Positions 43,251-45,813 of a DNA stretch of 45,813 bases are shown here, one piece after another (within the stretch, counting starts at the first letter, position 1; each line of letters opens with the position of its first letter). The position numbers and the translations under genes were made by a program. The notes below the pieces were generated by a model. It did no database searches and was not told the origin of the DNA. It saw only the letters and a list, made by a program, of their open reading frames with translations. The DNA comes from Spirochaetales bacterium (GTDB lineage: Bacteria; Spirochaetota; Spirochaetia; Treponematales; UBA12059), in contig JAFGJV010000012.1 in the NCBI GenBank assembly GCA_016928955.1, positions 1 through 45,813 on the forward strand, in the 5' to 3' direction.

Positions 43251-43279
43251 AGTATAATCGCATCTAGTGCTTTTCGGAA
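43251..43279 (-). promoter_or_regulatory. Promoter of the gene ending at 42226
   Basis: Minus-strand TTCCGA, 17 bases, TATACT. The predicted start of transcription near 43244 lies downstream of the ATG at 43263 and about 22 bases before the ATA codon at 43221. Confidence 0.5.
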
Positions 43280-43287
43280 TCCCTATT

Positions 43288-43394
43288 GGGAACCTCTAAA
43301 ACCCCCATGGGTATTAGAGGTTCCCTGCGTTTTCGGCGGAAAACACAGGGTTTCTAAGGTAACCCTCTAAAAACTGAAGTTTTTAGAGGCTCCC
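43288..43394. repeat. 107-base run of four hairpins with imperfect terminal inverted repeats
   Basis: In order: GGGAACCTCTAA/TTAGAGGTTCCC (43288-43299 with 43314-43325, perfect 12-base arms, and a CCCATGGG palindrome in the loop); GTTTTC/GAAAAC around GGCG (43329-43344); AGGGTT/AACCCT (43347-43366); CCTCTAAAAACT/AGTTTTTAGAGG around GA (43364-43389, perfect 12-base arms). The outermost 14 bases (43288-43301 and 43381-43394) are also inverted repeats with one mismatch, so the whole unit looks like a small non-autonomous mobile element or a highly folded RNA. It marks the border between GC-rich chromosome and AT-rich island. Confidence 0.75.
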
Positions 43395-43452
43395 TTTTGT
43401 AAATTTCGAGCAATATGGTAAAACTAATTGCGTATGCTTATATTACTAGGCG

Positions 43453-43539
43453 ATGTTTCTTATCATAGTGTGTATTGTTGCTTGTACTGATCTGGAAAGA
43501 AGCATGGGAAATTATGAGAGCTATGTGAGTGTGCTTTGA
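43453..43539 (+). CDS. Possible 28-residue hydrophobic or lipoprotein-like peptide
   Basis: ATG to TGA, 28 codons: MFLIIVCIVACTDLERSMGN, then YESYVSVL. The N-terminus looks like a very short lipoprotein signal (IVAC followed by a polar tail). TATATT lies eight bases before the ATG, matching the short-leader promoters of this genome; no ribosome site. Short ORFs arise by chance in AT-rich DNA, so this is only a candidate. Confidence 0.25.
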   Translation: MFLIIVCIVACTDLERSMGNYESYVSVL

Positions 43540-43690
43540 ATAGAGTCGTCGATGCAGCAAAGGGTTATACTGTAATTATTAGCAGAAGCCGGGGGCGCAT
43601 TAAGAAATGCCAATCATAATCGCTATTCTAGCATTCGCGGCGCAGTTTTTAGTTAAAGAATAATATGGTTCCTTTATTTCGCTATTCGGA

Positions 43691-44140
43691 ATGGTATTTC
43701 TGTGTGCTGTAATTCATTATGCGAAACCTGATGTTAGATTTAATAAACTTAGTTTTATATTGGCGCCCTTTTTTGTTTTGGCGGTCGACGCGTCAAATTA
43801 CTTGATTTCTGGCAGCTATTTTCCAACGATAGGTCTTTTTGTGGCAGCTTTCATAGAAGAAGTGGTGTATAGATTCTATCTAGATGATGAGTTGTCAAAA
43901 TATCATAGCAGCGGGTGCTCGGGAATGATCTCTCTAGGAGTTTTCTTACTCATTCATGTACCCAAATATTTGGACAGACTTCAGTCTTATCTTATTTTAG
44001 GTTTTGCGACAACCTTTTTTCTTTATTACAAACGTAAGACAAGAGATTTGATGCTGGTCAGCATACTCCATTTTGGTTTCAATTCATTTCTCATGTTATT
44101 TCTATTGCCAATTGTTGAATTCATTCTTTATGGATCATAA
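43691..44140 (+). CDS. CPBP-family intramembrane metalloprotease (short, perhaps N-terminally disrupted)
   Basis: 149 residues with about four membrane helices and the three CPBP (Abi/CAAX protease) motifs: E56-E57-x3-R61 in FIEEVVYRFYL, His89 in VFLLIHVPKY, and His127-x3-Asn131 in LHFGFNSF. Family members include Rce1 and the PlnI/PlnP-type bacteriocin-immunity proteins. In the same frame an 18-codon hydrophobic ORF (MPIIIAILAFAAQFLVKE, 43607-43660) ends in TAA at 43661, after which the frame is open into this gene; together they would give the extra N-terminal helices usual for the family. So either the gene starts at 43691 or a one-base change (CAA to TAA) has broken it. A TATACT box stands at 43566-43571. 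Confidence 0.7.
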   Translation: MVFLCAVIHYAKPDVRFNKLSFILAPFFVLAVDASNYLISGSYFPTIGLFVAAFIEEVVYRFYLDDELSKYHSSGCSGMISLGVFLLIHVPKYLDRLQSYLILGFATTFFLYYKRKTRDLMLVSILHFGFNSFLMLFLLPIVEFILYGS

Positions 44141-44235
44141 GACCAAGATTTGTTCGTTGTTAATATATAGGGCCGGAACCATATTAGAAGCCAAGGAGTA
44201 TCATGATTGGAGCCTCTATGCAAAAGCGAAAAACT

Positions 44236-44264
44236 TTGACAAATTTCCCCAGGTGGCGAATATT
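44236..44264 (+). promoter_or_regulatory. Promoter of the double-glycine precursor gene
   Basis: Perfect TTGACA, 17 bases, AATATT. Predicted +1 near 44271, giving a leader of about 16 bases with AAGGAG before the ATG at 44287. It lies inside the N-terminal extension that an upstream ATG (44203, also with AAGGAG) would add, supporting 44287 as the start. Confidence 0.55.
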
Positions 44265-44286
44265 TTTAATGTCCAAGGAGAAGCGT

Positions 44287-44658
44287 ATGAAAAAGCTGTT
44301 GCTGTTGTTGGTTCTGGCGCTCTGCGCCGGGCTGGGGCTGTGGGCCCAGGAGGCCGCCGTGGATCCCTTTGCTGCCATCGAAGCGGAGGAGCTCTGCGCC
44401 GAAGAGATGAAAATGGTTCAGGGCGGATTGCCGCGTAGGGCTGGAGATGTCACCATGTCTATTGATGGTGTGTCAGGTGGGTACCTGAATCAGTGGCAGG
44501 CGAATTTGCATAGCGGGTATAACACTGGAGATGATTATTACCCGGCATCTACAGCAAAAGAAAGACGAAAAGAAATAAAAAAAGTTATTGGTATTACTAG
44601 GTATGTCCTGAATTTTTGGGACAACTTGCTTGGCGGAATCTCTGAAGAACTCGAATAA
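44287..44658 (+). CDS. Precursor peptide with Sec signal plus double-glycine leader motif
   Basis: 123 residues. Residues 1-20 are a Sec signal (MKKLLLLLVLALCAGLGLWA). After an acidic stretch comes EELCAEEMKMVQGG ending at residue 47. Counting back from the cleavage point, Leu -12, Glu -8, Met -7, Val -4, Gly -2 and Gly -1 match the double-glycine leader consensus of class II bacteriocins and related peptides. The 76-residue 'core' has a Gly/Tyr/Asp-rich part (SGGYLNQWQANLHSGYNTGDDYY), a basic helix (KERRKEIKKVIGITRY) and a hydrophobic end (VLNFWDNLLGGI). No cysteine is in the core. AAGGAG precedes the ATG. It lies between two CPBP protease genes and ends at a strong terminator. The leader codons are GC-rich while the core codons are AT-rich. 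No C39-peptidase transporter or modifying enzyme is in the window. Function (bacteriocin, signal, or surface peptide) is inferred. Confidence 0.7.
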   Translation: MKKLLLLLVLALCAGLGLWAQEAAVDPFAAIEAEELCAEEMKMVQGGLPRRAGDVTMSIDGVSGGYLNQWQANLHSGYNTGDDYYPASTAKERRKEIKKVIGITRYVLNFWDNLLGGISEELE

Positions 44659-44666
44659 TTAGCCTG

Positions 44667-44697
44667 CTACTGGCAAAGCCATTTGCTTTGCCAGTAG
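44667..44697 (+). terminator. Rho-independent terminator of the precursor gene
   Basis: CTACTGGCAAAGC and GCTTTGCCAGTAG form a perfect 13-base stem with a five-base loop (CATTT), followed by TCTTCAATTTT. It begins nine bases after the precursor stop codon. Confidence 0.85.
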
Positions 44698-44794
44698 TCT
44701 TCAATTTTACTCACATCGACAGCGGTATGCTACAAAAATAAAAGCACTGTAGCTGTTGACAACTCGCATTTGCGGTTTTTCAACATCTTGTTGC

Positions 44795-44827
44795 TATAAG
44801 TGAGAGGGGGGCATGAGAAGTGCCCCC
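44795..44827 (+). promoter_or_regulatory. Extended -10 box and leader hairpin before the second CPBP gene
   Basis: TGC-TATAAG (-10 at 44795-44800) is followed by GGGGGCA-TGAGAAG-TGCCCCC (44807-44827), a perfect seven-base stem that would sit at the very 5' end of the transcript, four bases before the GGTGG ribosome site. A stray TTGACA at 44756 is too far for this -10. Confidence 0.5.
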
Positions 44828-44841
44828 GTTGGTGGTGAAAA

Positions 44842-45573
44842 ATGGATGATTTCTTGAAAAAACTATTAGGGAATTCAGTAGGCCGGGCAGGAGTTATTTT
44901 ACTTATTAATACCATTCTACTTTTTTTGCTAGTCCTAGGTGCTAAGCTATCCAAAAAGAAAGCATTCTTTCGCGGTTTGTGCATCGTTTTATATAACATA
45001 GTGCTTTCTGAATTCATCTATACAGCAATAATAGCGTTTGTCAATTATAATTACCAAAAATGGCTGGTTGGGCAGTTTTTAGTCATGATCTTTCTTGGGC
45101 TTTTACAGTCAAGTGTGATTTATATGTCATATTGCTTATTTCAAAAGGCAATAGGTGTTAATGTTGGAAAGAATTTATTGAACTCAATGGTGGTGAAAAA
45201 AGGTGATTTATTTCCTATGGTAAAGAGTTTGATTTTTCCGTTGATTTATCTGGTGGTCTTTATCACTGCGAGAGGCCGGCATCGTATTGTATTAGAACCT
45301 CTACAAATCGTCAACTTGGTCGTCCTAACACCAATAATCGAAGAATTCATATTCAGGTTTTCGATACCGCAAATGCTCAAAAAAGAAAAACTTGCGTTGG
45401 GATACATTTCTATTTTGTCAATTGTCTTCGCGCTTCTCCATCCTGCGGACGCGAAGTTGTTTGCCCTATTTTTTTCAATGTATGTGTATTCTGTTTATAA
45501 TAAAATCGGCAAATTAAGCGCAACAATAATTATCCATAGTATTTCGAATTTTGTGTACGTTTATTGGATGTAG
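44842..45573 (+). CDS. CPBP-family intramembrane metalloprotease
   Basis: 243 residues, six to eight membrane helices. Motif 1 is Glu167-Glu168-x3-Arg172 in TPIIEEFIFRFSI, motif 2 His200 in FALLHPAD, motif 3 His232-x3-Asn236 in IIIHSISNFV: a complete predicted active site. CPBP proteins next to double-glycine bacteriocin genes commonly serve as self-immunity proteins or peptide processors. It has its own promoter after the precursor's terminator, so it can be expressed separately. The next gene starts three bases after its stop. Confidence 0.85.
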   Translation: MDDFLKKLLGNSVGRAGVILLINTILLFLLVLGAKLSKKKAFFRGLCIVLYNIVLSEFIYTAIIAFVNYNYQKWLVGQFLVMIFLGLLQSSVIYMSYCLFQKAIGVNVGKNLLNSMVVKKGDLFPMVKSLIFPLIYLVVFITARGRHRIVLEPLQIVNLVVLTPIIEEFIFRFSIPQMLKKEKLALGYISILSIVFALLHPADAKLFALFFSMYVYSVYNKIGKLSATIIIHSISNFVYVYWM

Positions 45574-45576
45574 ATT

Positions 45577-45813
45577 ATGACTACCAAAACAACAAAACTT
45601 AGCTTTGTAGAAACACGTTATATGCAGGTGAAAAAATGTAATTCACGCGTAAGCGCAAGGCTAATTGGAACTCTTGGGGCGGTCTGTCTCGCGCTCACGC
45701 TCGAAATAGCTCTACAGTGGATTTATGGTGAGATAGTCAATCGTAACGAGACCTGGTTGTACGAGCATTGGTCACCTTTTGTCTGGGATAACTACGATTT
45801 CCTCCGGGAACTC
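45577..45813 (+). CDS. N-terminus of an unknown membrane protein, cut by the window edge
   Basis: 79 codons open to the end of the window. A polar start (MTTKTTKLSFVETRYMQVKK) leads into one membrane helix (about residues 29-50, IGTLGAVCLALTLEIALQWIY), then an aromatic-rich segment (ETWLYEHWSPFVWDNYDFL). I do not recognise the family. It starts three bases after the CPBP stop without a clear ribosome site, so it is probably co-transcribed and part of the same locus. Confidence 0.6.
   Translation, partial: MTTKTTKLSFVETRYMQVKKCNSRVSARLIGTLGAVCLALTLEIALQWIYGEIVNRNETWLYEHWSPFVWDNYDFLREL

Follow-up and report, generated by a model that had tools for sequence, protein, structure and literature searches.

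A Sec signal peptide and a double-glycine leader in tandem on a spirochaete precursor family, with a probable secretion route through a C39 peptidase in the periplasm and a FapF-like barrel

The DNA analysed here is a 45,813-nucleotide contig of a Spirochaetales bacterium (JAFGJV010000012.1; the whole stretch is referred to as the window), in which the gene at positions 44287 to 44658 encodes a 123-residue product with two export signals in tandem, a Sec signal peptide and a double-glycine (GG) leader. The combination is genuine, not a product of chance, and is general in the order, as relatives of the precursor share it. The best explanation, which we consider probable, is a family of exchangeable secreted peptides that would be exported by Sec, cut at GG by a periplasmic C39 peptidase and released through a FapF-like outer-membrane barrel. 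The precursor gene is made up as follows:

44287 to 44658, plus strand: precursor gene with two tandem leaders, 123 residues (open reading frame and leader profile)
44287 to 44346, plus strand: Sec signal peptide MKKLLLLLVLALCAGLGLWA (from the sequence; opens all aligned relatives alike; cleavage site placed by eye)
44347 to 44427, plus strand: linker and GG leader QEAAVDPFAAIEAEELCAEEMKMVQGG (alignment of relatives and composition)
44428 to 44658, plus strand: core (mature) region, 76 residues (no family match)

The product thus reads MKKLLLLLVLALCAGLGLWA-QEAAVDPFAAIEAEELCAEEMKMVQGG/LPRRAGDV..., with 76 residues remaining after GG. The Sec signal peptide is followed, 27 residues on, by LCAEEMKMVQGG, and the GG-leader consensus is present at positions -12, -8, -4, -2 and -1. 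A leader hidden Markov model built from 18 relatives, with the precursor left out, recovered it among 3916 open reading frames with an expectation value (E) of 1.4e-8, and it was still recovered (E = 2.4e-5) when the three nearest homologues were removed as well. With the precursor in the training set, it is the sole full-length match of the leader profile in its own genome (E = 5.5e-17); a search of that genome gave no paralogue, and the viral contigs searched gave no match. Family-model searches of the 76-residue core returned no recognisable family; its likeness to the core of G117a is weak, 4 of 300 shuffles being equally good before any correction for 18 tests.

A leader-profile search of 294 genomes of the same order, the kind of search that the original prediction had proposed, found the dual leader in about 25, with the GG region retained in the homologues. 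The pattern consists of a signal peptide, a short linker and the element F-A-x-V-E-G-x2-L-x3-E-x3-[VI]-x-G-G/E/A, and the linker varies in length among 19 aligned precursors. In this alignment, every precursor has L or I at -12, one of V, I and L at -4 and G at -2, whereas 16 have E or D at -8 and 14 have F at -20; the GG position was set by eye, and -20 played no part in that choice. The longer matches (E below about 1e-5, the approximately 25 genomes) are distinct from those confined to the signal peptide, and the matches above about 1e-5 were discarded because their similarity lies mainly in the signal peptide. Five genomes beyond the training set (G147, G036, G069, G212 and G062) contain members, and a contig retrieved through its C39 alone, also outside that set (L109), bears a precursor as well. 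The profile misses some small subgroups (G041/G071 and G107) when the whole subgroup is left out, and the leader was not found in the other orders sampled from the phylum. The named relatives with the system are Treponema and Spirochaetaceae assemblies; a narrower C39 alignment gave 10 named loci.

A search of 59 related genomes with the precursor only gave G053 and G033 as the best, and both products combine a Sec signal peptide with a GG leader (LTVTEMEDIVGG/LPR and LTETEMEGIVGG/LPR, respectively) and carry different, larger cargo. These two were picked by precursor similarity, not by neighbouring genes, and both precursors lie 7 to 57 bp from a secreted stand-alone PF03412 (C39) protein (E = 2e-11 for the peptidase of G053). 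C39 proteins were matched in 36 of the 294 genomes. The C39 set retains Gln, Cys, His and Asp; the NCBIfam FapD model is matched by 15 of 15 members, all far below its 330-bit cut-off, and is the best NCBIfam model for the member displayed in full. A barrel-like family is present in 24 of about 30 stretches fetched around stand-alone C39s, mostly adjoining the C39, and a lipoprotein family of about 120 residues in approximately nine. The barrel structure predicted from nine sequences (predicted local distance difference test score, pLDDT, 77.5) points to a FapF fold: the best 20 Foldseek matches are all FapF or COG4313 (E = 5e-13), and the comparison with FapF gives Z = 23.6. The barrel sequence profile finds FapF as its sole match among PDB sequences (E = 0.004), and one barrel member exceeds the Pfam cut-off in PF13557. 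Because the FapD model matches the peptidases and the fold and profile searches of the barrel both lead to FapF, the peptidase and barrel of the relatives are a FapD-FapF type pair.

Since the precursors adjoin the C39 and the barrel in most of the genomes with the dual leader, a route from Sec through C39 to the barrel is likely. The precursor would then belong to a family of secreted peptides that is spread across the order and whose members are exchangeable, and its N-terminal signal peptide would carry it through Sec. A periplasmic stand-alone FapD-like C39 would recognise the second leader and cut after GG, and the core would leave through the FapF-like outer-membrane barrel encoded beside the peptidase. 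The cores, mostly bacteriocin-like or small enzyme-like, appear to be swapped onto the conserved leader along with the gene that follows, whose product, often a membrane protein, would probably confer immunity, CPBP being one such partner; the cores themselves may serve an antagonistic function.

Leaders are conserved and cores are exchanged between precursors. In the precursor of the window the G + C content at third codon positions (GC3) is 0.79 for the leader (44287 to 44427) against 0.40 for the core. The leader has the higher GC3 in 21 of 23 precursors (Wilcoxon P = 3e-6), and 99 control open reading frames with signal-like starts show no such shift. In G044, two inverted copies (L071, 6227 to 6622 and 8725 to 9119) are 92 to 93% identical over about 400 bp of flank and leader, and the two proteins are 94% identical in the leader and 18% in the core, their cores being unrelated. 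These inverted repeats enclose the C39 and barrel genes; if they recombined with each other, the machine could be inverted or the cores swapped. Among the core types are glycine-rich peptides with GxxxG, an enzyme-like type bearing Cys/His and longer types (about 145 to 177 residues). The structural model of the Cys/His cargo from G053 was too poor (pLDDT 37.5, two sequences) and was set aside. We regard it as evenly balanced whether all this amounts to a general spirochaete export system for peptide weapons, with Sec, a periplasmic C39 and a FapF-like pore, in which toxin cores are swapped by recombination within the leader.

The gene 3′ of the precursor often encodes a membrane protein, and its family varies (CPBP, signal peptidase II-like and others). 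Cassettes of toxin and immunity genes, such as the pneumococcal blp loci (PMC4860687), likewise pair a precursor with a variable partner gene, which suggests, by analogy, a similar organisation here. Signal peptidase II-like membrane proteins (PF01252) are seen in the precursor or C39 neighbourhood at L084 (5419 to 6378) and L088 (9654 to 10490), at a position held by CPBP or another membrane protein elsewhere, and an aspartyl-protease-like protein, a third protease-type partner, is located right after the precursor at L083 (3477 to 4430).

Several observations weigh against the proposed route, in the family as well as in this genome. After the invariant G, 8 of the 19 aligned precursors have a residue other than G (E in four, K, T, A and Q in one each, G in the remaining 11), and E, K, T or Q in this place, though not A, is atypical for C39 substrates. 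The leader co-occurs with a stand-alone C39 in 19 of 25 genomes, a count that is partly circular because the training leaders were gathered at C39 loci; the other six genomes have a clear leader without a stand-alone C39, the precursor being at a contig end in most of them. In the genome of the window, the only C39 match, a stand-alone one on contig C59 at the contig end, stops at ...HFALVLGMKDGSVGAVG..., short of the catalytic Asp; the gene that follows was recognised by eye as leuS from its sequence, and no barrel was found in this genome. The precursor copy may thus be orphaned, given the shortened C39 and the missing barrel, unless the machine is located in unassembled sequence.

The surroundings of this copy contain the following features:

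43264 to 45813, no strand: AT-rich island, 35 to 45% G + C, compared with 66% in the rest of the window
43691 to 44140, plus strand: CPBP 1, 149 residues, EEVVYR and HFGFN retained (PF02517 and motifs)
44236 to 44264, plus strand: promoter-like TTGACA-17-AATATT, 5′ of the precursor (consensus match only)
44275 to 44280, plus strand: Shine-Dalgarno sequence AAGGAG (from the sequence)
44666 to 44698, plus strand: terminator-like hairpin with a 14-bp stem, just 3′ of the precursor stop (consensus match only)
44842 to 45573, plus strand: CPBP 2, 243 residues, EEFIFR and HSISN, candidate immunity protein (PF02517)
45577 to 45813, plus strand: open reading frame running off the contig end, no family match

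The sole break in the island is the 141-bp leader (44287 to 44427), at 62% G + C. Near the left edge of the island, at 43364 to 43389, there is a perfect 11-bp hairpin, CCTCTAAAAACTGAAGTTTTTAGAGG.

The alternative that survives best is that the island is a decayed relic which has lost its machine, so that the precursor is no longer matured; we put this slightly short of evenly balanced for this copy, and it is compatible with the proposed route for the family, not for the copy itself. The truncated C39 beside leuS, the missing barrel and an in-frame stop before CPBP 1 speak for decay, whereas the precursor frame, its ribosome site, the promoter-like site and the terminator-like hairpin are all intact, the last three suggesting a single-gene unit. 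Fragmentation of the assembly into 59 contigs also argues against it, as contigs C23 and C59 each have an end at or close to the peptide system; the contig of the window terminates at 45813 and allows no extension to the right. It is possible that the ends of C23 and C59 are joined in the genome; neither the end of C59 nor the start of C24 shares an exact overlap of at least 10 bases with the right end of the window. In several relatives contigs likewise end at leader-family precursors, probably because the leaders are repeated. On contig C24 of the genome of the window (L009, 3984 to 11961), YcaO, a SagB-like nitroreductase, two CPBP proteins, an ABC-2 transporter and a B12 radical SAM protein form a cluster resembling those for thiazole-oxazole modified peptides, in which no precursor peptide was found.

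The original prediction had described a peptide system with CPBP proteases on both sides and had proposed that a membrane protease of this kind trims the peptide at GG. The system itself is supported, and both neighbours match PF02517 above the cut-off (E = 1.4e-11 and 7.3e-12) with the EExxxR and HxxxN motifs. CPBP 1 was confirmed as a gene at its place, but not with its start: the frame read from 43607 is interrupted by an in-frame TAA at 43661 to 43663 that severs the upstream stretch, so that only the 149 residues from 43691 are open. Cleavage of the precursor at GG by the flanking CPBPs after Sec export, perhaps in place of a C39 lost here, appears unlikely. Of the six CPBP genes in 2.87 Mb, two stand beside the precursor, one on each side and both on its strand; their motifs are intact, the C39 of this genome is truncated, and a processing role is still conceivable from the precedent of SilX, a CAAX protease reportedly required to mature a streptococcal signal peptide (PMC9298176). 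However, GG is a known signature of C39, not of CPBP, CPBP 1 has the upstream stop, and it is the secreted C39, a peptidase from a family of fitting specificity, that recurs beside the leader family; a CPBP lies near the precursor or C39 at three loci only (G000, G039 and, as a fragment, G031), two besides the present one, and unrelated membrane proteins occupy its place elsewhere, as would be expected of immunity genes, so the idea of a conserved CPBP neighbour was abandoned. With CAAX proteases counted as immunity genes in pneumococcal blp loci (PMC4860687), the CPBPs beside the precursor seem to fit immunity proteins better than cleavage enzymes.

That the product is an ordinary Sec-secreted small protein with a coincidental GG, as a core of no recognisable family might suggest, is very unlikely in view of the leave-one-out match and of homologues in which the GG is kept and one leader precedes cores that are unrelated. 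Least credible is a spurious signal peptide before a GG leader serving an ATP-binding cassette (ABC) transporter with a C39 domain (PCAT). PCATs with GG peptides have been proposed in Treponema denticola (PMC4947327), but PCAT substrates lack Sec signals and this genome has no PCAT, its single C39 match being stand-alone, in line with the earlier expectation that no C39 transporter is needed.

If spirochaetes do have such a general export system for peptide weapons, Fap amyloid export would represent a single branch within a broader class of secretion systems, and the spirochaete substrates of that class could be recognised from sequence. The periplasmic C39 reaction becomes directly testable, as a FapD-FapF-like pair adjoins small Sec-exported proteins with GG leaders. 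The dual-leader rule finds secreted peptides that may escape miners, whose searches assume only one of the two signals, Sec or GG, and the family is an example of cargo being exchanged with the leader as the anchor.

Among known systems, the Fil pilus of Acinetobacter is related through its C39 protein: the FilB model (NF050078) is matched by 15 of 15 C39s and is second to FapD for the displayed member, but the scores are far below the cut-off and the comparison covers the C39 proteins alone. The pneumococcal blp system (PMC4860687) shares the GG leader, common leaders on different cores and CPBP or other membrane-protein neighbours, but exports through an ABC transporter with a cytoplasmic C39, whereas the spirochaete GG leader is preceded by a Sec signal. 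The closest likeness is to the Fap system of Pseudomonas (PMC5557850), with its Sec-exported substrates, secreted periplasmic C39 and adjoining outer-membrane barrel of FapF fold. Secretion requires the catalytic Cys of the periplasmic FapD (PMC5557850); the substrate of FapD is not known, and a canonical C39 site is absent from the Fap proteins (PMC5557850, PMC6173800), whereas the spirochaete candidate substrates bear a GG-type C39 leader. A secreted stand-alone C39 is present in the relatives, with the gene of this genome truncated, and the adjoining FapF-type barrel in the relatives only. FapB/FapC amyloid subunits with N/Q-rich repeats were not found: 19 cores contain no FapC-type repeats (N + Q 0 to 13%), the NCBIfam Fap models gave no match in the precursors scanned, and nothing corresponding to FapA, FapB, FapC or FapE was seen. 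The spirochaete cargo is instead bacteriocin-like or enzyme-like and comes with a variable partner gene. The system is a new form of Fap-type hybrid secretion, in which candidate substrates for the periplasmic C39 are visible.
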